Shown here: positions 7,057 to 61,600 of the stretch, piece by piece
How the letters are laid out: each line of letters opens with the position of its first letter
Numbering within the stretch: position 1 is the first letter of the stretch
DNA from: Methyloligella sp.
Lineage (GTDB): Bacteria > Pseudomonadota > Alphaproteobacteria > Rhizobiales > HXMU1428-3
Reading direction: 5' to 3'
Assembly (NCBI GenBank): GCA_021604645.1
Contig: BQJJ01000001.1
Span: forward strand, 124,001-188,000
DNA: 64,000 nt
The notes under the pieces: model-generated
Databases searched by the model: none
Seen by the model: the letters and a program-made list of their open reading frames with translations, nothing else
Told to the model about the DNA's origin: nothing
Program-made: the position numbers and the translations under genes

Positions 7057-8022
7057 ATGAAATGTATGACCCCGTCAGATGAAGATCCGGCAGAAGTAAC
7101 TGCAATGGATCCAGAACAGAAAACTGATTTTAGCACCAAATGCGGGTTTGTTGCTCTCATTGGTGCGCCGAATGCTGGTAAATCAACTCTGACAAATCGA
7201 TTGGTGGGAACAAAAGTCTCAATCGTCACCAGAAAAGTCCAAACAACAAGGGCACGGATCAGAGGCATTGCAATTTTCGACGAAACGCAAATTGTCTTTG
7301 TGGACACACCTGGGATTTTTGCCCCAAAGAGGCGCTTGGATAGAGCAATGGTCGATGCAGCTTGGGGCGGCGCAGCGGACGCAGATTTAGTGGTGCTTTT
7401 AGTCGATGCTCAAAGAGGCATAACTGAAGATGTTGCAAACATTTTAAAGAAACTAAAAGACACCAAATACACACTGGCATTGGCAATTAATAAAATGGAT
7501 TTGGTCCGCCGTGAAGATTTATTAAAACTCACCAAAGACCTCACTGCCGATGTGAAATTTGATGAAGTTCTTTATATTTCTGCTGAAAAAGGTCAAGGGA
7601 CAGGGGAGTTAGTCGATTATTTAAAAACACGCTTGCCACTAAGCCCGTGGTTATATCCAGAAGACCAATTAACAGATGCCCCCATGCGCCACACAGCTGC
7701 CGAAATCACCAGAGAAAAGCTATTCTTACGTCTACATGATGAGCTGCCCTACGCGACAACAGTTGAAACCATTGACTGGAAAGTTAAAAAAGACAAATCA
7801 GTCCGCGTGGAACAAGTGATTTTCGTTGAGCGAGATAGCCAGAAAAAGATTGTCCTTGGAAAAAATGGAGATGCTGTCAAATCAATCTCTATGTCATCTC
7901 GAAAAGAGCTAAGTGAAATTTTAGGCGTGCCAGTTCACTTGTTTCTCTTTGTAAAAGTAAGAGAGCGCTGGGGCGACGACCCAGCCCGCTTCCGCGAAAT
8001 GGGCTTGGACTATACAAAATAG
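7057..8022 (+). CDS. era: GTPase Era
   Basis: Era is an essential GTPase that binds the 3' end of 16S rRNA during small-subunit assembly. The G1 motif GAPNAGKST, G3 DTPG, and G4 NKMD are all visible, followed by a C-terminal KH domain containing KIVLGKNGDAVK. The 321 residues include about 28 extra N-terminal residues before the G domain. ATG codons at 7057 and 7066 are both possible; neither has a strong ribosome-binding site. The final G of its TAG stop is also the first base of the hairpin repeat at 8022, so the repeat is fused to the gene end. Confidence 0.95.
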   Translation: MKCMTPSDEDPAEVTAMDPEQKTDFSTKCGFVALIGAPNAGKSTLTNRLVGTKVSIVTRKVQTTRARIRGIAIFDETQIVFVDTPGIFAPKRRLDRAMVDAAWGGAADADLVVLLVDAQRGITEDVANILKKLKDTKYTLALAINKMDLVRREDLLKLTKDLTADVKFDEVLYISAEKGQGTGELVDYLKTRLPLSPWLYPEDQLTDAPMRHTAAEITREKLFLRLHDELPYATTVETIDWKVKKDKSVRVEQVIFVERDSQKKIVLGKNGDAVKSISMSSRKELSEILGVPVHLFLFVKVRERWGDDPARFREMGLDYTK

Positions 8023-8179
8023 CGCGGTTGCTAGTGGGCAACCTGAAGCGCCAACACAGAAGCGCGGTTGCCGCGACGGTTGCTGGTGGGCAACCCGAAG
8101 GAGCATTAAAAGGGTAAGCAACCTGAAGTGCAATTAAAGGTCGTGGATTTTGTGATGGTTGCTAGTAAGCAGCTGAGGG
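8022..8179 (+). repeat. Cluster of small hairpin repeats (mini-hairpin family)
   Basis: At least two good copies and two degenerate copies of a small hairpin. The best (8022-8051) has an outer stem GCGC/GCGC and an inner stem GGTTGC/GCAACC around TAGTG, with TGAA before the outer 3' arm. A second lies at about 8062-8103 (GGTTGC 8078-8083, GCAACC 8090-8095) and partial copies near 8112-8137 and 8155-8179. The family recurs near 8315, 21393, 21529, 25151, 59292, 59343 and 59563. Confidence 0.85.
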
Positions 8180-8222
8180 CAAACAAAAAATGGGTGCATA
8201 AGTCTGAATGAAGATTTATCAA

Positions 8223-8377
8223 TACGAAGAAGGAAGTGCTCTACTTCAGAGCACGGACATGACGCCAGAGGCGTCCGGTGCCTAGCACCGCCCCTCGGAG
8301 GCCCAAGCGCTTCAGCACGGTTGCTAGTGGGCAACTGAAGTGCCACTATAAAAAGCGCTTGGAATAGCCGTGAGAGA
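8223..8377 (+). repeat. Multi-stem element, copy 1
   Basis: Conserved 5' end TACGAAGAAGG, then stem A GTGCTCT/AGAGCAC (8236-8254), linker ACAT, stem B GACGCC/GGCGTC (8261-8275), stem C CGGTGC/GCACCG (8276-8290), a short stem in CCTCGGAGG (8293-8301), stem E CCAAGCGCTT/AAGCGCTTGG (8303-8312 with 8353-8362), and conserved 3' end AATAGCCGTGAGAGA. The loop of stem E holds a mini-hairpin repeat (8315-8343). The element ends 5 bp before the recO ATG, so its GAGAGA forms the purine stretch ahead of that start. Confidence 0.85.
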
Positions 8378-8382
8378 TAAAT

Positions 8383-9177
8383 ATGGAATGGAGAGATGAC
8401 GGCATCGTGCTTTCAATTAAAGCACACGGGGAAACCAGCGTCCTGGTCGAACTCTTCACGTCTGAACGGGGCCGTCATCTAGGACTTGTCCGCGGTGGTA
8501 AATCGCGCAAAATTCGCCCTATCTTACAAGTCGGAAATGTCGTCAGTGCAACATGGCGCGCCCGTCTTGATGAGCATCTTGGCAGTGCTGTGGTTGAAAT
8601 GGTTGAACCCGTTGCCTCTAGGCTGTTTGATGATCCATTAGCACTGGCGGGACTTTCATCTTTGTGTAGCCTATTGTCTCTCTTTCCAGAACGCGCCGCC
8701 CATCAAGGGCTCTATAAGGGCGCTAAGTTGGTTCTCTCTCATATGGAAGATGATGAAATCTGGCCAGGGCTTTTGGTGCGGTTCGAAATGGAAGTTTTAT
8801 CTGAACTAGGCTTTCGGTTAGATTTTTCTGAATGCGCCGCCACAGGCGTGAAAGAAGATTTAATCTACGTTTCCCCAAAGTCAGGTAGAGCAGTCTCGCG
8901 CGAAGCAGGTTTGCCATACAGAGACAAACTTCTCGAACTTCCTCCTTTTTTAAGTGGTGAAAGAAAAGAAGACGTGCAAAACCAAGACATTCTAAATGGC
9001 TTTGCATTAACAGGCTTCTTCTTTGAAAGATACGTATTCAAGTCAGACCAACAAACAAGTCTGGCTTTTGCAAATGCCAAAAACAGTAATAAAGGTGCCG
9101 ACCATATCGGCGCACAAAGGTGCGAGGCAGCAAGAAACAATTTCCTAAAACGCTATAAAAAATCAAAAATTAGCTGA
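8383..9177 (+). CDS. recO: DNA repair protein RecO
   Basis: RecO anneals single strands and, with RecR, loads RecA onto SSB-coated gaps. The 264-residue protein has the N-terminal OB fold (residues 1-80, beginning EWRDDGIVLSIKAHGETS) and the helical C-terminal domain. The cysteine zinc motif of many RecO proteins is not evident: I see only one cysteine near its place (SECAATG). The C-terminus is slightly longer and basic. The start directly follows the repeat element ending at 8377. It closes the acpS-lepB-rnc-era-recO order but is cut off from era by 360 bp of repeats. Confidence 0.92.
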   Translation: MEWRDDGIVLSIKAHGETSVLVELFTSERGRHLGLVRGGKSRKIRPILQVGNVVSATWRARLDEHLGSAVVEMVEPVASRLFDDPLALAGLSSLCSLLSLFPERAAHQGLYKGAKLVLSHMEDDEIWPGLLVRFEMEVLSELGFRLDFSECAATGVKEDLIYVSPKSGRAVSREAGLPYRDKLLELPPFLSGERKEDVQNQDILNGFALTGFFFERYVFKSDQQTSLAFANAKNSNKGADHIGAQRCEAARNNFLKRYKKSKIS

Positions 9178-9197
9178 GATAAAGATTGATGCATAAC

Positions 9198-10490
9198 CTA
9201 GTTAGAAACGGCATCTTTGATAAGCCTGCCTAAGTCTCCAAAGGGGCGAATGTTATAGTCGCTGCCATGGCGATAAGGTAATTTCCAATGCCAAAAACTT
9301 GTCCCAGTCAGCCAAGGATCTTTATTGTTCTCTCTAAACTTCAATTGCTCTCTTTTTAAAGAAGCAAGCAGCGCTTTGTAACCATTTGCTTGTTCGACAA
9401 AGTCTAGTAAAGCATCTTTTGATGTACCCCAAGGTGTAGCAGTTGATTTGTTAAATGAAGTGAGACCAAATTCGGTTAAATAAATCGGTCGGTTATGTTG
9501 TATGGAAAATTTCTGAAGTTCGGCTAATTTCTGATCTAATTTCTGCTGAATAATAGCTTGCGAAGGGGCACCTATGTCTTGTGCTTCGCGCACCGAACTA
9601 AGGGGGAAATAAGCATTTATACCAATCTCATCCATATGCCGCCAAAAAGGAAAGCTTAAATATTCTTCCCAATGAGCTGCATAGATCAATAATAACTCAT
9701 GAGAGCCGTTTTTTTGCTGTTTCTTTTTCTTTGTTCGATAAATCAGTTCTTCCCAAAAAGGGCGAGCTGCAATGTTATGGGAGAGGCTTGCTAATTCAGA
9801 ACCTATGAATATATAGGGAGATTTCTGTTGGAGGCTAATGTCTAAAATATCATCGATTAATTTTAGATATTGCTGAAAGAAAGTCTCTAATGTGCGTCCG
9901 AAAAAATTAAGGTTGCCACGCCAGATGCCACCAATCTGATGTGGGTTATCAATTTCAAGAACAGGATAGAGTGACGCTTTAATTCCTCTATCTTGTGCCA
10001 CTTGCATGCCACGAGCTAAAAAAGCAAGGTCTGGCGCTTGGTTGTTATTAAATTGACTTTGCTTTGAAATTGTCCCCATCACAGGGTCAACAAAATAATA
10101 ATTCAAGAGAAAGCAATTGTGTATTTTATGAGCTGATAAATCTTGAAAGACCTCATTCCAAAACTTATCAGGATTTAAACCACCCTGATGCCAAAGCGGA
10201 ATGTGAACACTGATTGCCCCGTCCATTTTAGAAGATGCTATTGCAGAAGAAGACATTTCAGAAAAACTGTCTTGAGGTGCTGAGCGTGCATCGGTTGCGT
10301 GAGCGCAAATAGAAGGTAGGGATGCAAGAGAACCAGTTAAAGCTGTGCGGGACCCAACAAAACTTAAAGCGTCTCCCATTGTTTTTATAAAATCACGGCG
10401 GGTCGGAGCAGCTTTTAAAGCAACAAAATCTTTATCAATAAATGAGGGAGTAGATGTTTGTTCGAGATCAGAAGTCTTGCAATTTGGCAT
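9198..10490 (-). CDS. Tat-exported GH113-like glycoside hydrolase
   Basis: The protein (430 residues from the ATG at 10490; a GTG at 10505 is also possible) has a twin-arginine signal: TRRDFIKT about 30 residues in, then a hydrophobic stretch ending near CAHATDA. The rest resembles a TIM-barrel glycosidase of the GH113/GH5 type. IFIGSEL carries the likely acid/base glutamate, EIGINAYFPLS the strand between, and IYLTEFGL the likely nucleophile glutamate. GH113 enzymes cleave beta-mannan; the substrate here is not determined. I prefer the second start because GGTGAG lies 10 bp before it. It converges with recO and sits 81 bp from the pentapeptide gene on the same strand. Confidence 0.65.
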   Translation of the reverse strand: MPNCKTSDLEQTSTPSFIDKDFVALKAAPTRRDFIKTMGDALSFVGSRTALTGSLASLPSICAHATDARSAPQDSFSEMSSSAIASSKMDGAISVHIPLWHQGGLNPDKFWNEVFQDLSAHKIHNCFLLNYYFVDPVMGTISKQSQFNNNQAPDLAFLARGMQVAQDRGIKASLYPVLEIDNPHQIGGIWRGNLNFFGRTLETFFQQYLKLIDDILDISLQQKSPYIFIGSELASLSHNIAARPFWEELIYRTKKKKQQKNGSHELLLIYAAHWEEYLSFPFWRHMDEIGINAYFPLSSVREAQDIGAPSQAIIQQKLDQKLAELQKFSIQHNRPIYLTEFGLTSFNKSTATPWGTSKDALLDFVEQANGYKALLASLKREQLKFRENNKDPWLTGTSFWHWKLPYRHGSDYNIRPFGDLGRLIKDAVSN

Positions 10491-10571
10491 CTTAAAGTTG
10501 CTCACCTAAAAAAGCATAAAAGAGAGATTGTCTTAAGCTTCAAATCCTAGCACGCCTTGTATGAAAAAAAC

Positions 10572-11420
10572 TTATTTTCTCTCAACACCAACATTTTTTG
10601 CTTTGTCTAAACTGCTACTCTCCCTCCCAATCAATTTTATCAGTGTTGCACTATCCATATCGGCATCGTCAAAATTTGCTTTGCTGATATCAGTTCCCTC
10701 TAAACGGGCCCCATCAAATTGAGCGCCCTTAGCATTCACTCCAACTAATTTAGCATTTTTTAAATAAGCAAATTCAAGAATGGAGCGAGAAAGGTTTGCA
10801 TTGCTGAGGTCAGCATTTTCCAGATTGGCAGAACTCAAATTTCCAGTGATTAATCCCATAGATTGATTGCGCATATCAGCTGAAAGATTGGCTCCGAGCA
10901 ACTTAGAATTTTTCATATTCGCACGGCTCAGATTGGCGGCAATGGTAGCACCCGAAAGGTTGGAGTTTTCCAAATTCACATCAAGCATTTGCGCTTGAAA
11001 AATGCTTGAGCCACTCAGGTCAGAATTAGAGAGATTGGCTTTGAGTAGCCAGGCCTGGTCAAGGCGGGCTCCTTTTAAAATACTATTCGATAAATTGATT
11101 TTATTCATATTAGAAGCGCGAAAATTGACGTTAGAGAAATCAAGGCCGCTTAGGTCAAGTCCGTTTAATGAAAGGTTTGATAAATCCGCAGGGCGATTGT
11201 TAGAAGAGGCATGTTTTAATTTCTCAATGACTTGCTCTCTACTAAGTTCAGACTTTGTCATAGCATCGCTAGATAAGTCTACATGGTCCATCATATTCTG
11301 TGCTGAAACTCTCTCTAACCCGGAAAAACAAAGCAAAATGCTAAGTGACATAACAAAAGCGATCAAAAACTGACGAATGAGGTTAAAAAGATATGAAGAG
11401 TGGTGTTTAATGATATTCAT
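10572..11420 (-). CDS. Exported pentapeptide-repeat protein
   Basis: A 282-residue protein with an N-terminal signal peptide (hydrophobic residues about 15-33, cleavage probably after VSA). Residues about 77-265 are pentapeptide repeats of the A(D/N)LXX type (for example ANLENADLSNANLSRS), which fold as a right-handed square beta helix. Export makes a DNA-mimic role such as gyrase protection unlikely; a structural or binding role in the periplasm is more probable. GAAGGAT lies ahead of the ATG. The GH113-like gene follows on the same strand, so the two may be co-transcribed. Confidence 0.85.
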   Translation of the reverse strand: MNIIKHHSSYLFNLIRQFLIAFVMSLSILLCFSGLERVSAQNMMDHVDLSSDAMTKSELSREQVIEKLKHASSNNRPADLSNLSLNGLDLSGLDFSNVNFRASNMNKINLSNSILKGARLDQAWLLKANLSNSDLSGSSIFQAQMLDVNLENSNLSGATIAANLSRANMKNSKLLGANLSADMRNQSMGLITGNLSSANLENADLSNANLSRSILEFAYLKNAKLVGVNAKGAQFDGARLEGTDISKANFDDADMDSATLIKLIGRESSSLDKAKNVGVERK

Positions 11421-11801
11421 GAATAGTATCCTTCCATAAAGAGGGAGTATTGCAAAGTTGCATTCCAGTTTTTTTGGATTTTGAAAGTTCGTATCACTTT
11501 TTTAGTCCGCCATATTACGTATCTGGTAACCCTTTTTCCACTAACCGGAGGCTTTGTGACCAATCTAACTCAATATTTGAGCAAGAATGAGCAGTGTGGC
11601 ATGTGAATTGCCTATTAAAATAGTTAAAATGGGCAAACGAGTACAAAAAGCTGGCCTTTTAAATCCAGTAATAAAAATAAAACCATTATGCTCAAAAAAT
11701 GATCTGCACCGATGTCAAAAAAACATCAGTTATAAAAGACTGAATAAAAACATGACGAATAAAAAACATGTATGGCATCAGCATAGTTTGGGGAGAATTT
11801 T
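11421..11801 (+). other. Divergent region upstream of hypC
   Basis: 381 bp between the pentapeptide gene (leftward) and hypC (rightward). It contains the sigma-54 type promoter at 11597-11612. Upstream of that I see no clear palindromic activator site. A short open frame from 11587 overlaps hypC out of frame and has no coding features. Confidence 0.5.
11597..11612 (+). promoter_or_regulatory. Sigma-54 type promoter ahead of hypC
   Basis: TGGCATGTGAATTGCC matches the -24/-12 consensus TGGCAC-N5-TTGCA: the GG and GC pairs are separated by exactly 10 bp. Transcription would begin near 11624, about 180 nt before the hypC ATG. Sigma-54 promoters with an NtrC-type activator such as HoxA are known for hydrogenase genes in several proteobacteria. 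Match and position are seen; use is inferred. Confidence 0.6.
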
Positions 11802-12080
11802 ATGTGTCTTGGAATTCCAGGTCAAATCGTAAGTGTGAAAGATGAGATCCGTCATCTAGCCGTTGTTGATGTCTCTGGCATCCAGCGGGATGTCAATGTA
11901 GCTTGTGTCATATCTGATGATCGTCCAATTGAAAAATGTATTGGTGATTGGGTGCTTGTTCATGTTGGTTTTGCCATGAGTCGCATTGACGAAGAAGAAG
12001 CTGTAGAAACTCTCAAAATTCTCGAAAAATTAGGTGAAGTTGAAGAAGAGTTGGAAGCAATGCGAACAACAGGTACTTGA
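11802..12080 (+). CDS. hypC: [NiFe]-hydrogenase maturation chaperone HypC
   Basis: HypC binds HypD and the Fe(CN)2CO unit, then delivers it to the hydrogenase large subunit. The defining N-terminus MCLGIPGQ is present, with the essential Cys2 that is exposed after removal of the initiator methionine; the later motif VLVHVGFAMSRIDEEEA is also typical. At 92 residues it is of normal length. GGGGAG eight bases before the ATG fixes the start. It leads the group hypC - SIS gene - hypD - hypE, all on one strand with gaps of 43-136 bp and strong ribosome-binding sites. Confidence 0.95.
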   Translation: MCLGIPGQIVSVKDEIRHLAVVDVSGIQRDVNVACVISDDRPIEKCIGDWVLVHVGFAMSRIDEEEAVETLKILEKLGEVEEELEAMRTTGT

Positions 12081-12216
12081 TGTCAGAGTGCTTGATATCA
12101 GAGGCACGTGATGCCCTTATGAGTAAATCCATTTAAAATCACATTTGCAAATCTCATAAGCTTTACCAACCCCTAAAAGCCTAAAAGGGCAAAAAATCTC
12201 AAGGGAAGAGGACAAA

Positions 12217-12900
12217 ATGTCTGAAAACAACGAAGAAGCTTTATCAGGTCTCTATCCATTCTTGCATGACAAAAAACAAGACCCGGCCCAAATGAATGAG
12301 GCTCTTTTAAAATCAGTTCAACTCAAGGCAGATGACCATGCCACTGTCCTCAATGATTTTTTTCAAACTCACAGCCAAGATGTCGTTGAAGCCGCTAAAA
12401 CAATAGCCGAAGTTTATCGAGCTGATGGACGCCTTCTAACAATGGGGAATGGCGGTTCAAGCTGTGATGCAGCTCATGTCGCCGTTGAATTTCAGCATCC
12501 AGTCACGGCCGGGCGCCCCGCTCTCACTGCCATTAACCTCACATCAGACATCACTATGATGACAGCTGTTGGAAACGACATTGGCTTCGCTCATGTCTAC
12601 ACAAGGCAGGTGATTTCACAGGGGAGAAAAGGCGATTGCCTAATCGGCCTGTCTACAAGCGGGAATTCAGATAATTTGGTCAACGCATTCGAAAAAGCAC
12701 GTGAGATGGGCATTAAAACCATCGGCTTTGCCGGCATGTCAGGCGGCGCGATGAAAGAGATCGGGCTTGATCATTGTCTGACCATAGATAGTCAGTCCAT
12801 TCATCGTATCCAGGAATGCCATCTGATCATATATCACATCCTATGGGATTTAGTGCACACCTTGTTGGCTGATGACCGAGGCGGACTAAGAGCAGATTAA
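12217..12900 (+). CDS. SIS-domain sugar isomerase, GmhA-like, inside the hyp cluster
   Basis: A 227-residue SIS-domain protein of the sedoheptulose-7-phosphate isomerase (GmhA) type. Substrate-binding motifs GNGGSSCDAAH and GLSTSGNSDNLV are clear. The glutamate in HVAVEFQHP and the histidine in RIQECHLIIYH match the catalytic pair of GmhA. About 40 N-terminal residues precede the domain. By family it would isomerise a ketose phosphate to an aldose phosphate, as in heptose synthesis for lipopolysaccharide. Its place between hypC and hypD, with GGAAGAGG before the ATG and the same promoter, suggests a role linked to hydrogenase maturation or to growth under the same conditions. No heptose genes are nearby. 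Confidence 0.8.
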   Translation: MSENNEEALSGLYPFLHDKKQDPAQMNEALLKSVQLKADDHATVLNDFFQTHSQDVVEAAKTIAEVYRADGRLLTMGNGGSSCDAAHVAVEFQHPVTAGRPALTAINLTSDITMMTAVGNDIGFAHVYTRQVISQGRKGDCLIGLSTSGNSDNLVNAFEKAREMGIKTIGFAGMSGGAMKEIGLDHCLTIDSQSIHRIQECHLIIYHILWDLVHTLLADDRGGLRAD

Positions 12901-18624: not shown

Positions 18625-21294
18625 ATGGAAGAAATCGTTCTAATTTTATTTGTTCTTGGCCTAATGGTTTTGTTCTTTTTGTTGGGAGCGGCGATTGGTG
18701 GAGTTGCCCGCAGTCTAAAAGCTTATCTTTTCGGCGTTAAAGATCATGAAAAATTTTGTGGCCAAAGAAAAGATACTGCCGTTGAAACTAGCAAAGAAGA
18801 AGGTTTTGATGCCGCAGCTGCCGCTTTAGCTGCTGGCGGAGTGGCATCAGGTGTGGCCCTATCAAATACTGGAGATGAAGCAGACAGCACAGTTCAAGTC
18901 ACTCATGATGAACTAGAAACAGATGCATCAAAAGAATGGACCGAGGAAACAGCTCAAGCAGCTGAACCAATTGATGAAACTGTAGAAGTTGTCAGAGCTG
19001 ATGAAGAAGAAGTCCCTGAGCAAGACGAAAGTGAAGATTTATCTGTAGCTACTCCAAAAGAGGGCGAACATTCACTAGAGACAGAAGAATTATCAGAAGT
19101 TCAAGTGTCTAGAGACGAAACAGCAGAAACAGTTGTGGAAGATAACATCATTGCTCAGGAAGAAGTTAATGAAGAAGATGTTACCCAAGAAGATCATTCA
19201 TCAGAAGACATATCAGATGAGCAAGCCGCATTAGCAGCGTTGGCTGCGTCTCAAGCGGCTACAGAAGATTTGACAGATGAAGAAAGCTCACAAGAAGAGA
19301 CAATTCAAGAAGATAGCACTTCTGCAGAGCAGAGCACTGAGGAAAGCAATGATGAAAGCGGTGTTGACCTCTCTGACGTAGCTGGGGCGGCTGCGGCGGC
19401 TGTTGCAGGTGTCGCGGCAGTAGCAGGCTCAAAAGAAGAAGAAAAAGAAGAACATGGTGCCCCAGTTTGGGATTATACCCAACAAGAAGTTGATTATAGC
19501 GACGTTGTTTTTGCCGTAGATGGTGAGGACGATGATCTTCAGCTTATTCAAGGTATTGACGCTGAGATGGAAGCTGAACTCAAACAAATTGGTCTGCGTC
19601 AATTCGGGCAAATTTCGACATTCACAGGTAAAGAAGTCAACTTTTTAAGGAACAAATTTAATTTTTACAGCACTTTGAATGAGCAAGTTTGGATTGAGCA
19701 AGCAAAAATTCTCTCAACAGGTCAACTAACTGTTTATGCTAAATCTTTATCATCAGAAGCGCCAGTTGAAGAAGCTGTTGTTGAAGAGACAATTTCTCAC
19801 GTAGAAGAAACCGTTGTGGAAGAAACTCAAGCGGAAACGGTGGTTGAAGAAGTCGCAAGTGAAGAAAATGACAATTCTAATCAAAGCGCTGAAGAAGCCG
19901 AAAGTAATGAAGCTTCTTCACTAGCAGGTTTAGCTGCAGCTGGTCTTGCTGGAGCTGCGGTAAAAGAAGCAAGTGAAGCCCTTTCTGATTCAGACCGCGA
20001 GCCAAGAGGTGACCGCGAGCCAAGAGGTGATCGCGAGCCGAGAGGTGACCGCGAACCGAGAGGTGATCGCGAGCCAAGAGGTGACCGCGAGCCGAGAGGT
20101 GACCGCGAACCAAGAGGTGATCGCGAACCAAGAGGTGACCGCGAGCCGAGAGGTGATCGCGAACCAAGAGGTGACCGCGAACCAAGAGGCGATCGTGAGC
20201 CAAGAGGTGACCGCGAACCAAGAGGTGATCGCGAGCCAAGAGGCGATCGTCAACCAAGAGGTGATCGCGAACCTAGAGAGAATAGGCGTTTATTTGGTGA
20301 AAAAGAACGAGCTGAGCGCGATGAGGAATGGCGCAATCGGTATCAAGGTGAGAGAAAGATTAAAACACCAGAACAAACAGAAGATACATCTGAAGAAATC
20401 TTGACGGAAGAAACTGAAACTTCTGAAATCATCGAGACCGAGGTTTCGAGTGCTGAAAGTGGTGTGTCAGCCGCTATTATAGAAGAAACTAGTGTAGAAG
20501 ACGCTCCTGCAGAAGATGTTGCTGAGACTGAAGAGCAAGGATTTACGCGCCCAGTAGATAGTGATGACCTTAGCCAAATCAAGTTTATTTCCACTGGTCT
20601 GGAAAAGAAGTTGAATTTACTAGGTGTTTATAAATTATCGCAAATTGTAAATTGGTCAGATGAAAAGATTTCTGAAATTAGTGAACAATTGGAATTGCGC
20701 AAAGATAAAATTATAGCTGAAGATTGGCGCGGTCTGGCTCAAGAGGCCTTAGACAAACAGCAATCAGAAACAGTCAGCGAAGCTGCAGCCGGTGGTTTGT
20801 TCTCGGCCTCAGCATTAGTCGCGCGGCTTGCAGAGTTGGACAAAATTAAAGATCTGGATGAGCACGAAAAAACAGTCCTCTCTAATAACGGCATCACAGA
20901 ATTATCCCAAATCGCGAATTGGTCAGGTGCTGATGTAAAATGGGCAAGTGATTTGCTAGAGCTTTCATCAACTGAACGCGCGACAAGTTGGGTTGCGACA
21001 GCTTCATCACTAATCTCTGCTGGTGAAATCAATATTCCAGGCGGTGAAGCTAGTGGTGACGCGGATGATCTAAAAAGAATTCGCGGAATTGATGATGAGG
21101 CCGCCGAAGGCCTAAAAGCAATGGGTGTCACCACCTATGCGCAAATTGCTGAATGGCAGCAAGAAGAAATGGATCGTGTGAACGATTTATTAGGCACATC
21201 AGGTAGGGTTGAGCGTCAATATTGGGTCGTACAAGCCAAAGTTCTAAAAGATGGCGGTCACACCGATTTCTCTAAACTCTATGATGAATCTTAG
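18625..21294 (+). CDS. Large membrane-anchored helix-hairpin-helix repeat protein
   Basis: 889 residues from the ATG at 18625; an upstream GTG at 18547 would add a low-complexity stretch. Residues 2-24 form a membrane helix (EEIVLILFVLGLMVLFFLLG). A long acidic region rich in Glu, Ser and Ala follows. Four helix-hairpin-helix modules can be seen: around LQLIQGIDAEMEAELKQIG, IKFISTGLEKKLNLLGVY, VLSNNGITELSQIANWSG and LKRIRGIDDEAAEGLKAMG, each ending in an Ile-Trp-Ser/Gln block and a helix. Between modules 1 and 2 lie 16 hexapeptides based on DREPRG. Such modules resemble those in proteins loosely named L21-like or DUF4332. No enzymatic motif is visible; a scaffold role beside the OmpA protein is inferred. 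Confidence 0.75.
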   Translation: MEEIVLILFVLGLMVLFFLLGAAIGGVARSLKAYLFGVKDHEKFCGQRKDTAVETSKEEGFDAAAAALAAGGVASGVALSNTGDEADSTVQVTHDELETDASKEWTEETAQAAEPIDETVEVVRADEEEVPEQDESEDLSVATPKEGEHSLETEELSEVQVSRDETAETVVEDNIIAQEEVNEEDVTQEDHSSEDISDEQAALAALAASQAATEDLTDEESSQEETIQEDSTSAEQSTEESNDESGVDLSDVAGAAAAAVAGVAAVAGSKEEEKEEHGAPVWDYTQQEVDYSDVVFAVDGEDDDLQLIQGIDAEMEAELKQIGLRQFGQISTFTGKEVNFLRNKFNFYSTLNEQVWIEQAKILSTGQLTVYAKSLSSEAPVEEAVVEETISHVEETVVEETQAETVVEEVASEENDNSNQSAEEAESNEASSLAGLAAAGLAGAAVKEASEALSDSDREPRGDREPRGDREPRGDREPRGDREPRGDREPRGDREPRGDREPRGDREPRGDREPRGDREPRGDREPRGDREPRGDREPRGDRQPRGDREPRENRRLFGEKERAERDEEWRNRYQGERKIKTPEQTEDTSEEILTEETETSEIIETEVSSAESGVSAAIIEETSVEDAPAEDVAETEEQGFTRPVDSDDLSQIKFISTGLEKKLNLLGVYKLSQIVNWSDEKISEISEQLELRKDKIIAEDWRGLAQEALDKQQSETVSEAAAGGLFSASALVARLAELDKIKDLDEHEKTVLSNNGITELSQIANWSGADVKWASDLLELSSTERATSWVATASSLISAGEINIPGGEASGDADDLKRIRGIDDEAAEGLKAMGVTTYAQIAEWQQEEMDRVNDLLGTSGRVERQYWVVQAKVLKDGGHTDFSKLYDES
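19993..20280 (+). repeat. Sixteen in-frame 18-bp repeats (DREPRG)
   Basis: Sixteen contiguous units based on GACCGCGAGCCAAGAGGT, the last degenerate, each encoding Asp-Arg-Glu-Pro-Arg-Gly. Units differ almost only at third codon positions (GAC/GAT, GAG/GAA, CCA/CCG), so the peptide is conserved while the DNA has drifted. One unit has Gln for Glu. Such an array can change length by slippage or recombination. Confidence 0.95.
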
Positions 21295-21372: not shown

Positions 21373-21392
21373 TGTTTGGATATTGAAAAAAC

Positions 21393-21419
21393 GCGGTTGC
21401 TAGTAAGCAACTGAAACGC
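21393..21419 (+). repeat. Mini-hairpin repeat
   Basis: Outer stem GCG/CGC, inner stem GTTGC/GCAAC around TAGTAA, with TGAAA before the outer 3' arm. It lies between the terminator and copy 2 of the multi-stem element. Confidence 0.8.
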
Positions 21420-21430
21420 ACAGTTTACTT

Positions 21431-21584
21431 TACGAAGAAGGAGTGCCGCTACTTCTGCGACAGCAAACATGACGCCATAGGCGTCCGGCGCCTAGCGCCG
21501 TCCCTCGTAGGCTCAAAGCGCTTCACCAGCGCGGCTGCTTGTGGGCAACCTAAAGCGCCACTAAAAAGCAATAGCCGTGAGAGA
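21431..21584 (+). repeat. Multi-stem element, copy 2
   Basis: Starts TACGAAGAAGG and ends ATAGCCGTGAGAGA. Stem A is imperfect (GTGCCGC with GCGACAGC). Stem B is GACGCC/GGCGTC, stem C CGGCGC/GCGCCG, and the short stem reads CCTCGTAGG, with the closing AGG kept. The last stem is broken by a mini-hairpin copy (21529-21558, outer arms GCGC/GCGC). Convergent genes flank it, so it is not placed ahead of a start here. Confidence 0.8.
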
Positions 21585-24924: not shown

Positions 24925-25374
24925 ATGGATCCTTTAATCTCTTAGAGAGAACAGCTCATAAAATAACCAATAGAAGGTCTTGCAAAATCAAGACGATCAA
25001 ATCAATTTTAAAAGCACACTATTTTCGCCGCATTTACATGTGTTTCTGCCTCGCGAATAAGGCCTTTTCATGCAATTATGGTTAAATTCTGTAGTTTGCC
25101 TAATAATTATTCAATTGCATAGCCCCTTAAAAGTTCATGTTTTTTAATAAGCGGATGCTGTGTGGGCATCTGAAGCACAAACAATTTATGCTGTGTTGGC
25201 ATCTGAAGCTAAATAAATTTATGCTTTGTGAGCATCTCAAGCTCAAAAAATGGCAACAATGGTGATTTCTATGGGATCCTGATGGTTAGATGCTTGCTCT
25301 TGGCAGTATCAGTGTCTATGGTTTGAAGCCACCATTCGGGGTGGCCTTAAAATTTTTAAGAAAAGAGAAAAATT
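24925..25374. other. Divergent slt/dapA region
   Basis: 450 bp between slt (leftward) and dapA (rightward). It must contain both promoters. The only clear structure is the group of three mini-hairpin repeats at 25151-25242, about 130 bp before dapA. Confidence 0.5.
25151..25242 (+). repeat. Three degenerate mini-hairpin repeats
   Basis: Three tandem copies with stems GATGC/GCATC (25154-25170), ATGC/GCAT (25188-25202) and ATGC/GCAT (25221-25235), each followed by TGAAGC or TCAAGC and an A-rich tail. The inner stem uses GATGC instead of the GTTGC seen near 8 kb, with the matching change in the other arm. Confidence 0.7.
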
Positions 25375-39274: not shown

Positions 39275-39366
39275 ACAATTATTTCTCACAAAAAGTACTA
39301 AGTGATGTTTATATAAGTTTTCACTCACTCAATTTCAATCTAACAAAATAAAGCTAGCCCTTGTTG

Positions 39367-39406: not shown

Positions 39407-39520
39407 TCCGAAGAAGGGAGTGCTCTGCTTCAGAGCACGGACATGACGCCATAGGCGTCCGGCGTTAACGCCGCCCCGTCGGAGGGCCTGCCGCTTATTG
39501 CGGCAGAATAGCCCGTGAGA
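39407..39520 (+). repeat. Multi-stem element, copy 3 (no nested insert)
   Basis: The most compact copy. 5' end TCCGAAGAAGG; stem A GTGCTCT/AGAGCAC (39420-39438); ACAT; stem B GACGCC/GGCGTC (39445-39459); stem C CGGCGT/ACGCCG (39460-39473); short stem region CCCCGTCGGAGG; stem E CTGCCGC/GCGGCAG (39488-39506); 3' end AATAGCCCGTGAGA. Stem E has an entirely different sequence from copies 1 and 4 but pairs perfectly. Genes on both sides run leftward, opposite to the element. Confidence 0.85.
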
Positions 39521-39530
39521 CAAAATTAAG

Positions 39531-43119: not shown

Positions 43120-46100
43120 TTAAAAGAATTGGCTATTTGGCTTTTTCTTCAACTGTAATTTTGGTTGCGGTTTAAAGACCTTCGGTTTCGGTTTAAACTG
43201 CGGCTTGATCTTTACTGGTTTCTTATAAATAGGCTTCTTAGGCTTATAAATAATCACCTTTTTCTGACAGCTCGCACCACCTTTGCCAATCGGCTTTCTC
43301 GTCATGCCTTTCGCGCAACCGCAATACCAACCCTTGCCACGTTTGTACAATTTACCATTGTAACAAGGTGGTTTTGGAGTGGAGACCTGGCGTTTCACAC
43401 AAGAAGCACCACCTTTACCAATTGGTTTCCGGTTGTAACCTTTCGGGCAACTGCAATACCATCCCTTACCACGCTTAGACAATCTGCCATTATAGCAAGG
43501 TGGTTTTGGCGTAGCCTTAGGTGGTTTAGAGCAATAAGCACCACCATTGCTATAGGCCTTGCGGTTATAGCCTTTCGGGCAGCTGCAATACCAACCCTTG
43601 CCTCTTTTAACAAGACGACCATTGATACAGTCTGGCTTAGGAGTGCTGACTTGTGGTTTGATACAAGCTGCACCACCATTTTTACCAATTGGTCTACGGC
43701 TCCAGCCTTTCGGGCAAACACAGCGGTAAGCTTTGCCAGCTTTCACCAACTTGCCTGAGTGGCAAGGAGGAATAGACGTGACCTTCGGTGAGCAAACACC
43801 TTTCTTGTTGCGAGAGAAACCAGCTTTACAAACACAACGACCATTTTTGTCTTTATATTCGTTACGGCCAGGTTTACAGCCCTGCGGTATTTTCTGACAA
43901 ATACCGTAGTTGTTTTTAGCAAAGCCAGATTTACAGACGCATTGTCCTTGTGAATTGCGGAACTCATTTGGACCGAGTTTGCAAATTTTAGGAAGCTTCA
44001 CGCAATAACCATTTTTGCTACGTGAGAAACCGGGCTTACAAACACAACGACCATACTTGTCTTTGAATTCATTTCGGCCAGGCTTACAGCTCTGTGGTTT
44101 AACACAGATGCCACGTTTGTTACGTGTGTAACCAAGCTTACAGACACATTGACCTTGTGAATTGCGGAACTCGTTTGGACCGAGCTTACAAATCGGAGGC
44201 AATTTCACGCAATACCCGCGTTGAGTACGTGTGAAGCCAGCCTTACAAACACAGCGGCCATATTGGTCTTTAATCTCATTGCGACCAGGCTTACATGTAT
44301 CCGGTTTGCGGCAGATGCCATCTGAGCCACGGCGGTAGCCTCGAAGGCAGACACATTGGCCCTTGCGGTTTTTATACTCGCCTTGTCCAGGTGTACAACC
44401 ACGAGATGGTGGTACACAAAGTTTTGGACCTTTGCGAACAAATCCAGGGCGGCATATGCAACGGTTATCACTTGTCCGCATTTCACCTTTGCCAACTTTA
44501 CAAAGTTGGACAGGAGGTATTTCCGGATAAACAGGTGGAATAAGCACATCACCAACACAGCGACGACCATTCCATTTTGTACCAGATGGGCAGACACAAA
44601 CACCATTGTCGTTCATCACAAGGGGTGCACGGCATTGGTCTTCTTTAGGTGGATCAAGCGTGAAGGTATGACACCCAACAATTTCACCATTACCTTTGTT
44701 ACCATTCGTTCCTGGAGCAGCTTTCGCGCCGCCATTACCAAGTGCAGCGTCAGTAACCATGGCGCAATTGCGCAGAGTTCCATCAACTTTTACACTCTCT
44801 TCAAACAAGAGACTGATTTTATGCGTCTGACTTTCGCCAGCAGCTAAGTTCAATGTGCCTTGGCAAACAAACGGTACTGCCGTTGGTTGCACATCACATG
44901 GTAGAGGCGGTGAGATTGATTGAATAGCAACAGTCAACCCACTACCAGCAAGACCAAGCGCATCTGCAACCTGAACTGAACCGTTAAAATCAGAAGTGCC
45001 AGTATTTTTGATGGTCACATCAAACACACAAGCCTCACCCTTAATACATTGAGCAGGACCTGTTTTCTCAACGCGGATATCAACCCCGCCTTCAACACAT
45101 TTCTTGCCAATGATCGAGCGGTCTTCCTCAGTGCCTTTAGGTTCATAATGACCCGTCGCACAGTTTCTATAACGCTCACGTCCCTTTCCAGATAGTCTGA
45201 TTTTCGCATCAAAATATCTCGTTGTTCCAGGAGTGAGGTGCTTACCATCAATCGCACAAACCAAATCAGGAACCGGCTCACCCTCACAAGCCCATTCAGG
45301 CCCATCAGGTGTTACGTCTTCTGAGGTGAGCGGTGCATTTGTGCCAACGATACGAGCAACATCATAGATGCGGATCATACCCGTTGGTGTACCAGCACCA
45401 TTATTGCGAACCATAATGCGGCAAGAAATCTTACCACCAAGTACTCCAGGCTTACATTGCTTATCAATTGAAAGGTCTGGTTTCTTGTCATCTGCTGGGC
45501 CATCTCCGTCAGGAAGCTCACCAGTGGCACAATCTTTATCTTTGCCTGGCTCCGCTTCATTAAGTTTGGCGCAATTTTCAATCTCTTTGTTGTTAAGTTG
45601 ATCTGGATTGTTGAATTTACCAGTGACCTTCAATATCACCTGTCCATTAGCTGGGATATTAGTTGGCGGGTGAGTGCAATCAAAGTTCTGACCATCCACT
45701 GTGGCACAATTCCATGGCGGAATTGGGTTGAAGGTGACATTGTCAGGTTTTTTGCTAAAGCTGTCTTTGACATTAAGCGGACCGTTATAGTCACCGTCAC
45801 CAAAATTATGGATGACGATTTCATATATCAACCAGCAGGCGCCCACACCATTCGGGCCACCAAGACACTGGGTGCCCGTGTAAGATTTCTTGATCTCAAG
45901 TTCAGGCTCTTTCTCATCATTTTCATCAGGACAACCAGGGCTGCCTTTGATGCAAATTTCTGCACAATCTTTATCATTGGAAAGGTCGCCGAACGGATCA
46001 ACACCCATTTTTCCATAATTCAATTTTGCGCAGTTTTTGATTTTGTCACTCGGCCAAGCATTACCAGGTGTAAAGCCTAATTTCAGGTCTTTAAATTCAC

Positions 46101-59292: not shown

Positions 59293-59398
59293 CACGGATG
59301 CGTAGTGGGCATCTGAAGTGCAGTTAAGAAAGCACGGATGCTGGACCGGTTGTTAGTGGGCAATCTGAAGGTCCATTAAGAGTGGGCAACTAAAGCGC
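59292..59398 (+). repeat. Mini-hairpin repeats, one nested inside another
   Basis: Copy 59292-59321 has outer stem GCAC/GTGC and inner stem GATGC/GCATC. A second copy (59332-59342 plus 59382-59398) is split by a third (59343-59374) with outer stem GGACC/GGTCC and inner GGTTG/CAATC. The arms differ from the era copy at several places, each with the matching change opposite. Confidence 0.8.
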
Positions 59399-59414: not shown

Positions 59415-59562
59415 TACGAAGAAGGAACCCAGCCTTTTTTGTCCTTCAGTTGCCCACCAGCAACCGGACTAAGGCTGAGGGACATGGCAGCAGAGCTGCC
59501 CGGCGCAAGCGCCGCCCCTCGGAGGCCCAAGCGCCATAAGCGCTTGGAATAGCCGTGAGAGA
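59415..59562 (+). repeat. Multi-stem element, copy 4, with a reversed nested repeat
   Basis: 5' end TACGAAGAAGG, 3' end AATAGCCGTGAGAGA. Stem A is CCCAGCCTT with AAGGCTGAGGG (59428-59436, 59471-59481; two-base bulge); stem B GGCAGC/GCTGCC (59486-59500); stem C CGGCGC/GCGCCG (59501-59514); short stem CCTCGGAGG; stem E CCAAGCGC/GCGCTTGG (59527-59547). The loop of stem A holds a mini-hairpin in reverse orientation (59441-59469, arms GTCC/GGAC). Stems A and B differ fully from copies 1-3 yet pair. Confidence 0.85.
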
Positions 59563-59596
59563 TGCAACGGTTGCTGGTGAGCAACCTGAAGGAGCA
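59563..59596 (+). repeat. Mini-hairpin repeat supplying the rdgB ribosome-binding site
   Basis: Inner stem GGTTGC/GCAACC (59569-59574, 59581-59586) around TGGTGA, then TGAAGGAGCACT. The GGAG at 59591-59594 is nine bases before the rdgB GTG, so the repeat provides the ribosome-binding site. Confidence 0.75.
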
Positions 59597-59603
59597 CTAA
59601 AAA

Positions 59604-60268: not shown

Positions 60269-61516
60269 ATGACACAATTACAAGAGAAGCAAGAGACAAT
60301 AAGCCCTGTCATTTACAACCCAATTCGTGGGTTTGGGGTCTATGTTCACTGGCCATTTTGCGCTGCCAAATGCCCTTATTGTGATTTTAATTCACACGTT
60401 GCAAAACAGACAATAGACGAGCTCCGTTTTTTAAAAGCCTATAAATCTGAAATATCTCATTGGGCGAACCAAATTCGTCAAAAGGGTCGTTTAAAAAAAA
60501 TTTCCTCGATTTTTTTCGGGGGTGGCACACCATCCCTTATGAGCCCATCCCTTGTTGAAGGCATATTAAAAGAGCTCGAAGCTACCTTTGGCTTTGCTGA
60601 AAACATAGAAATTAGTCTGGAAGCCAATCCCCAAAGTGTCGATGCGTTAAAGTTTAAAGATTTAAAAAGCGTAGGCGTTAATCGTCTCTCAATTGGTGTG
60701 CAGTCATTCAACGACCAGGATCTGAAAACACTCGGGCGATTGCATGATGTAAAGCAAGCAAAACAAGCAATTGAAATCGCTCAAAATCATTTCGATCGTT
60801 TCTCATTCGATCTTATTTACGGCCGCCCAAAACAAACACTGGCTGATTGGGAGACAGAGCTAGAAGATGCAATCTCTCATGGGACAACCCATCTCTCTTT
60901 GTATCAGCTGACTATCGAGCCAAACACACCATATAAAAAATTATATGATGCTGGCAAACTCATCATGCCAAGTGAAGAGCTTGCAGTGGATTTCTATGAG
61001 CTAACTCAGGAGCTTTGTGAGAGTAAGGGACTTCATCAATATGAAGTGTCAAACCATGCTGTAAAAGGAGAAGAAGCTCGTCATAATCTTCTCTATTGGC
61101 AATATGGAGAATTCTTAGGTCTTGGCGCCGGTGCACACGGTAGAGTGGTCATCGGAGATAAAAGGTTCGCAACAAGCACGGTAAAAATTCCAAGTAAATG
61201 GCTAGAGGCCGTGGAGTTAAAAGGACACGGTGCTATAGAGCAAGAAGAAGTCTCAAAAGAAACGCAGGCCATCGAGATTGTTCTGATGGGTATGAGATTG
61301 AAAACAGGTATCTCACTAATCGATCTTGTTGAACGAACCGGTCATCAAATTGAAATAGCCACAATTGAAAAATTACAAAAAGATGAACTTTTAAAGTCAA
61401 GTCAAAGAGGTGACAACGCGCTTCAACTCGTGCCAACTGCCAAGGGCACGCAGCTCCTAAATTACATGGCCGGTCAGCTCGTAGAAGGATTGATTGAAGT
61501 ATCTGAAGTAAACTAA
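60269..61516 (+). CDS. hemW: HemW-like radical SAM protein
   Basis: HemW is a heme-binding radical SAM protein related to coproporphyrinogen dehydrogenase HemN, thought to deliver heme to respiratory enzymes. The 415-residue protein has the cluster motif in FCAAKCPYCDFNSH (Cys-x3-Cys-x2-Cys), the GGGTPSLMSP motif, RLSIGVQSFND, LSLYQLTIEPNTP and YEVSNHAV, and lacks the extra N-terminal part of true HemN. It is 44 bp after rdgB. Confidence 0.93.
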   Translation: MTQLQEKQETISPVIYNPIRGFGVYVHWPFCAAKCPYCDFNSHVAKQTIDELRFLKAYKSEISHWANQIRQKGRLKKISSIFFGGGTPSLMSPSLVEGILKELEATFGFAENIEISLEANPQSVDALKFKDLKSVGVNRLSIGVQSFNDQDLKTLGRLHDVKQAKQAIEIAQNHFDRFSFDLIYGRPKQTLADWETELEDAISHGTTHLSLYQLTIEPNTPYKKLYDAGKLIMPSEELAVDFYELTQELCESKGLHQYEVSNHAVKGEEARHNLLYWQYGEFLGLGAGAHGRVVIGDKRFATSTVKIPSKWLEAVELKGHGAIEQEEVSKETQAIEIVLMGMRLKTGISLIDLVERTGHQIEIATIEKLQKDELLKSSQRGDNALQLVPTAKGTQLLNYMAGQLVEGLIEVSEVN

Positions 61517-61530
61517 TAGAAACGTTGCAG

Positions 61531-61600
61531 TACGAATTATCTGGTTCCAGCACCACCCTTCGGAGGTCTGCTGTTTCTGCTGTAGAAAAGCCGTGAGAGA
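61531..61600 (+). repeat. Multi-stem element, copy 5, degenerate
   Basis: Only TACGAA of the 5' end, then CAGCACCACCCTTCGGAGG and the 3' end AAGCCGTGAGAGAG remain; stems A and B are lost. The short stem here has a TTCG loop (CCTTCGGAGG). It appears to be an internal deletion of the element, again between convergent genes. Confidence 0.65.

Follow-up and report, generated by a model that had tools for sequence, protein, structure and literature searches.

A five-hairpin intergenic repeat of Hyphomicrobiales with strong stem covariation and near-uniform orientation along the chromosome, probably a DNA element

The element at positions 59415 to 59562 of the window (the whole 64,000-nt stretch analysed, i.e., bases 124001-188000 of contig C1 of the 3.57 Mb genome G000, which comprises 27 contigs) is one copy of a previously undescribed repeat of about 115 nt that folds into five hairpins in a row, hereafter termed alpha. 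We consider it likely, with some reservation, that alpha is a REP/BIME-like DNA repeat, intergenic, non-autonomous and high in copy number, that is moved or recombined while single-stranded. Judged from its sequence, alpha is probably not an RNA gene. The DNA reading is preferred because the orientation of alpha follows the chromosome strand and not the genes, because gaps between divergent genes are avoided and because wobble pairs are rare.

Alpha copies in the window

The first-pass annotation had placed five copies in the window, each on the + strand. Every one of them is matched by a covariance model (R1) that was derived from 28 clean alpha copies, all from outside the window, with scores between 35.7 and 120 bits:

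8223..8377, + strand: alpha copy 1, R1 120 bits, with a gamma module nested in the loop of hairpin E
21431..21584, + strand: alpha copy 2, R1 80.6 bits, between convergent ORFs, with a gamma module in loop E
39407..39522, + strand: alpha copy 3, R1 88.1 bits, of a subfamily with an AGGG / GCCC terminal helix and AATAGCCCGTGAG
59415..59562, + strand: alpha copy 4, R1 112.2 bits, the element under study
61478..61600, + strand: alpha copy 5, R1 35.7 bits, a degenerate relic in which D, E and the 3' end are kept

The ORFs flanking copy 1 are presumably era and recO, and those flanking copy 4 are taken by us to be rph and rdgB. The site of copy 1 is also occupied in the congeneric genome G002, with 2% divergence. 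The annotation had ascribed both a 5' and a 3' motif to each copy, which is accurate except for copy 3, whose motifs are the variants TCCGAAGAAGG and AATAGCCCGTGAGAC, and for copy 5, which has no 5' half. As G002 carries a full alpha at this last site, copy 5 is a decayed copy. Over the whole window, 4 matches to the 5' motif (chance expectation 0.54) and 7 to the 3' motif (1.35) were obtained.

Copy number and distribution

The count of five proved too low by more than 10-fold. With at most one mismatch, the 3' motif AATAGCCGTGAGAGA occurs 149 times in the genome, as opposed to 0 times for a reversed-pattern control, and 87-169 times in several congeneric species; over the species of the genus, near-exact 3' ends range from 1 to about 170. 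The covariance-model search that the annotation had proposed yielded 93 alpha copies in 1.0 Mb of this genome, 25 of them in the 457-kb contig C1. As the 1.0 Mb was partly picked for copy richness, the number per genome, about 200, was extrapolated from C1.

Among 397 genomes sampled within the order, which record titles name as Hyphomicrobiales, 43 contain R1 matches; 7 genomes in other orders of the class are matched more weakly. Matches of a pattern scan fall, again by record titles, in Hyphomicrobiales, Hyphomicrobiaceae, Rhodomicrobium and a few other alphaproteobacterial MAGs. The annotation could not assign the element to any known family, and the comparison with Rfam agrees with this: no alpha match lies above a curated gathering score, and only chance-level hits, unrepeated between copies, were obtained. 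One of these, Atu_C8, reached 13.2 bits in a single copy and did not recur in others; another, MIR8670, was an inverted pair misread as a long hairpin. No relevant open paper was found to contain the 3' motif. Phages and viral contigs contained nothing, and no credible plasmid match was obtained, so that a phage or plasmid vehicle was discarded. A peptide-coding reading was also rejected, the ATG that follows stem A not being kept outside the genus.

In genome G255 (locus G255:C2:494001-513000, positions 7756-12636), alpha copies lie as inverted pairs between genes that we take to be rtcR, a gene for a TROVE/Ro60-like protein, and rtcB.

Architecture and covariation

Alpha consists of hairpins A-B-C-D-E in this order, followed by a conserved unpaired GTGAGMGA end; in this genus a GAAGAAGG end precedes them. 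In copy 4 the parts are the following:

59428..59481, + strand: hairpin A, CCCAGCCTT (59428-59436) paired with AAGGCTG-A-GGG (59471-59481)
59486..59500, + strand: hairpin B, GGCAGC / GCTGCC, covarying
59501..59514, + strand: hairpin C, CGGCGC / GCGCCG, covarying; its loop houses the beta module in many other copies
59516..59522, + strand: hairpin D, x C [CTC] G y, with x-y covarying as C-G, A-T or G-C
59524..59554, + strand: terminal helix, GGC (59524-59526), bulge AATA (59548-59551) and GCC (59552-59554)
within the terminal helix, + strand: hairpin E, CCAAGCGC (59527-59534) / GCGCTTGG (59540-59547), covarying
59555..59562, + strand: conserved unpaired 3' end, GTGAGAGA

The loop of hairpin A holds an inverted gamma module (about 59440-59471), and all seven pairs of helix A are altered on both sides. 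For hairpin D, the x-y types among 119 distinct copies are CG in 81, AT in 17, GC in 8, TA in 2 and TG in 6, with a mismatch in 5. The helix extends below hairpin E past the AATA bulge, where the G-run in AGG(G)(G)C pairs with the C-run in AGCC(C)(C)GTGAG. These two runs agree in length in 163 of the 179 distinct copies compared, and 25 of the 163 are not of the 2-2 type; the terminal helix of copy 3 in the window belongs to the GGG/CCC type. The GTGAGMGA-like 3' end is conserved across families of the order.

The stem changes quoted in the annotation are correct, and the covariation holds far beyond the window. In an alignment (A2) scored over helices A, B, C and E, 94.2% of the cells are paired, with 168 two-sided changes and 12 one-sided ones; none of 500 shuffles was as good, and sliding the partners lowers the paired cells to 30-44%. 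A second alignment (A3, 70 members, nearly all from other families) has 91.7% of its cells paired and 445 double changes, again with 0 of 500 shuffles as good; as its members were aligned to the model, slides and shuffles weigh more here than the percentage. The claim of a selected structure is thus strongly supported. The stems had been described correctly, whereas the nested modules, hairpin D and the bulged terminal helix had been overlooked.

This covariation, together with the conservation of the long 3' motif and of the bulge at family-level distances, is what would be expected of a functional structured RNA family (an sRNA, a 3' UTR element or a ribozyme) that has multiplied and whose pairing is kept because each RNA works. 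We nevertheless hold such a family to be improbable. G-U pairs are few, and A-C mismatches are nearly as many (49 G-T and 32 A-C among 1796 cells), a near balance that fits DNA hairpins decaying after insertion. Rfam offers no match, and the spread in near-exact 3' ends between congeneric species also argues against it. DNA-parameter folding of one clean copy returns the covarying structure (z -4.9) and with RNA parameters the minimum comes out rearranged; across 92 copies, the difference between both parameter sets is small.

Orientation along the chromosome

The orientation of alpha is nearly uniform in contigs of up to 1.16 Mb. In G000, the R1 matches (+:-) amount to 25:0 in C1, 10:0 in C2, 0:7 in C3, 2:24 in C4, 1:6 in C5 and 9:0 in C6, and overall 89 of 93 copies follow the chromosome strand; in G002, all 26 copies along the 380 kb of C3 have the same orientation. 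The direction is independent of the genes: alpha is found in either sense between co-directional genes and often between convergent ones. No copy lay between divergent genes among the classified cases, even though such gaps account for one fourth of all intergenic sequence. The location of copies near gene 3' ends is what a working RNA could account for, but their being oriented by the chromosome and not by transcripts speaks against it.

GC skew proved inconsistent in C1 as a marker of replication direction, and therefore rplB and 16S were used instead. Both genes in G000, and rplB in G002, lie on the strand opposite to alpha, an arrangement suggesting that alpha corresponds in sense to the nascent lagging strand; the picture in G004 is equivocal. 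As to base composition, GC skew in G000 is close to zero in C1 and pronounced in C2 and C4, and the alpha strand is A-rich throughout C1-C6 (T-A skew about -0.05 to -0.14).

Three further repeats share the polarity of alpha in G000, namely the beta (19:0) and gamma (64:3 and 26:1) modules and RIME-like repeats (14:0), and it is surprising that four distinct repeats all point the same way. Elsewhere in the order, other families carry alpha in head-to-head pairs and in tandem arrays, and inverted pairs are common there; hence, the polarity is a trait of this genus and not of the alpha family as a whole.

Near-uniform orientation over such lengths could also reflect a directional element of chromosome architecture, comparable with KOPS, Chi or gyrase-binding BIMEs and selected in one replichore direction. 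We regard this as quite improbable: very few near-exact copies are present in some congeneric relatives, there is no locus-wise conservation, and a polarity common to four repeat families points to a shared origin rather than to a shared function.

Divergence, hairpin exchange and mobility

G000 and G002 are about 9% divergent (91% identical). Orthologous alpha copies diverge about as much as their flanks, and their stems change no more slowly than unpaired bases, contrary to what is expected if each copy were a working RNA. Copy 4 is the exception, with 0.7% divergence from its G002 ortholog and 10.8% in the near flanks. Where orthologous copies differ, whole hairpins have often been exchanged for other matched hairpins. 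In a tandem pair of contig C6 (locus L047, 7236-7488), both units share an identical sequence from hairpin B onward and differ in their A stems.

Some alpha copies are present in only one of both genomes, at sites that are filled in one and empty in the other, as expected of a mobile element. Copy 3 lies within a 177-nt indel at window position 39358 whose site is empty in G002; the stretch is bordered by an imperfect 15-nt repeat, ACAAAATAAAGCTAG / ACAAAATTAAGCTAA. Tandem units of 129 nt have also been gained or lost. In this two-way comparison each difference may be either an insertion or a deletion, and ectopic recombination alone could explain a part of these gains and losses. A clean target duplication was not seen at any site; most sites are too rearranged for their junctions to be read. 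Between the two options left by the first-pass annotation, a structured mobile repeat or an RNA family, the former fits these data and a working RNA does not.

Nested modules

The beta module (about 52 nt, GATCAGCC...GCTGATC) lies inside hairpin C in 19 of 21 cases and has been gained or lost at one orthologous site; possibly it is no mobile unit of its own but a long allele of hairpin C. The gamma module (about 38 nt) is a two-part stem around GGTTGC...GCAACC and lies mostly in loop E. Two of its units are associated with window copies as follows:

8314..8352, + strand: gamma module in loop E of copy 1, repeat family D4, with outer and inner stems
59564..59602, + strand: gamma module directly 3' of copy 4, repeat family D4; its tandem units differ between G000 and G002

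The module is direct in the E loop of copy 1 and inverted in the stem A loop of copy 4. Gamma modules occur singly or in tandem arrays, their outer stem covaries and their number differs between sister species. All 57 nested inserts of at least 20 nt lie within hairpin loops, a placement that alignment to the covariance model may favour. Window gammas also lie at 8021-8111, 21386-21566, 25155-25253, 59298-59381 and 59564-59602. A gamma pseudoknot was considered and discarded (13 of 56, with 12.2 by shuffling).

Search for a mobilizing activity

The bulged hairpin with its conserved unpaired end, the replication polarity, the lack of a clear target duplication and the head-to-head pairs seen in other families would suit a derivative of an IS200/IS605-type (Y1) element or of a REP/RAYT system whose transposase has mostly been lost. 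Y1 genes are, however, not associated with alpha: they occur in 10 of 43 alpha-positive and in 57 of 354 alpha-negative genomes (p 0.28; 397 genomes), and are absent from G001-G007, G000 being the only genome of the genus in which they were seen. The two Y1-type genes of G000 C1 (locus L011, 11000-16000) are flanked by AATTACGGTGACAGT repeats unrelated to alpha, and no alpha match lies beside any Y1 gene examined, so that no resident autonomous IS with ends of the alpha type was found there. A Y1 or RAYT protein was accordingly rejected as the mobilizer. Moreover, IS608-type elements take the lagging-template sense, and alpha, opposite to rplB in G000 and G002, apparently does not. Descent from such a system therefore seems improbable to us as well.

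A reverse transcriptase was rejected as the mover, since the search of both G000 and G002 revealed none. A long autonomous form carrying an ORF between two alpha ends was likewise discarded: among 19 stretches without a near-exact 3' end there was no form with an internal gene, nearly all of them being alpha copies with the variant end AATAGCCCGTGAG.

Proposed mode of spread

For the DNA repeat of the REP/BIME kind that we favour, we propose that the hairpins act as single-stranded DNA while the region is replicated. A trans-acting factor would recognize the GTGAG end together with the bulged terminal hairpin, a combination that recalls the ends recognized by single-strand transposases, and would copy or paste alpha into single-stranded DNA at one side of the fork; insertion on that side would result in polarity. 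Recombination between copies in the conserved linkers would reassort intact hairpins, and pairing would thereby survive although no single copy is strongly constrained. A broader proposal is that alpha, beta, gamma and the RIME-like repeats have all been inserted one way with respect to replication, preferentially in hairpin loops, by an unrecognized replication-coupled single-strand activity that is neither a Y1 transposase nor a reverse transcriptase; we put this forward tentatively and consider it rather doubtful.

Relation to known repeats

REPs of the GTAG and CGTC super-families consist of a single hairpin of 20-40 bp with an unpaired GTAG or CGTC tag, and the alphaproteobacterial CGTC REPs have no dedicated transposase (PMC3733652). 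Alpha shares with REP, BIME and REPIN elements (PMC3733652, PMC3116915) its nature as a high-copy intergenic palindrome with an unpaired tag at one end, its occurrence singly, in tandem clusters and as head-to-head dimers (here 93 copies in 1.0 Mb, with pairs and arrays in relatives), the avoidance of promoters and, as is often the case, the lack of a dedicated transposase. It differs in its five hairpins over about 115 nt, its bulged terminal helix, its near-perfect replichore polarity in this genus, its nested modules and the cassette-like swapping of its stems. As its ends are GAAGAAGG and GTGAGMGA and neither the defining tag nor the size is found, alpha falls outside the GTAG and CGTC super-families; the co-occurrence that links REPINs to RAYTs is not seen either.

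With the ends of IS200/IS605 elements and of the non-autonomous elements derived from them, alpha has in common subterminal hairpins with an unpaired bulge and a replication polarity; it differs in showing no Y1 linkage and in a polarity that is apparently of the opposite sense. HEARO / omega RNA elements are, like alpha, high-copy and structured, with GTGA near the 3' end. HEARO gave no Rfam match to alpha at any reported threshold, and a non-systematic look at the ORFs adjoining alpha copies revealed no HNH ORF. RIME (Osteras 1995, cited in PMC2873474) is likewise a mosaic intergenic palindrome of about 100 nt from Rhizobiales/Hyphomicrobiales.

Alpha is an undescribed order-wide repeat with a covariation signal that is among the clearest for an element of probably non-RNA nature, which cautions against taking covariation by itself as proof of a functional RNA. 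That four repeat families of one genus have a common strand polarity provides a testable case for replication-linked spread without a recognized transposase, which for alphaproteobacterial REP elements would address a long-standing transposase gap. The model R1 could annotate hundreds of intergenic regions in Hyphomicrobiales.

Other repeats

Contigs C1 and C4 of G000 contain repeats of about 100 nt (AAAGTGG..CCGGTTTT / AGAGCATT..AATGCTC) that we take to be RIME-like. They coexist with alpha and run in the same direction, but differ visibly from it in sequence and hairpin order; they are polymorphic between species, have gamma modules nested in them and apparently lie in TA-type sites, which is not so for alpha. 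At position 157119 of the comparison between G000 C4 and G002 C1, a MITE-like insertion of 265 nt, bounded by long inverted repeats at its termini (TAAGCTCAGGACC...GGTCCTGAGCTTA), is present in G002 only. In the window, tandem repeats lie inside long ORFs at 19939-20350 (18 bp) and at 43261-44344 (132 and 207 bp).
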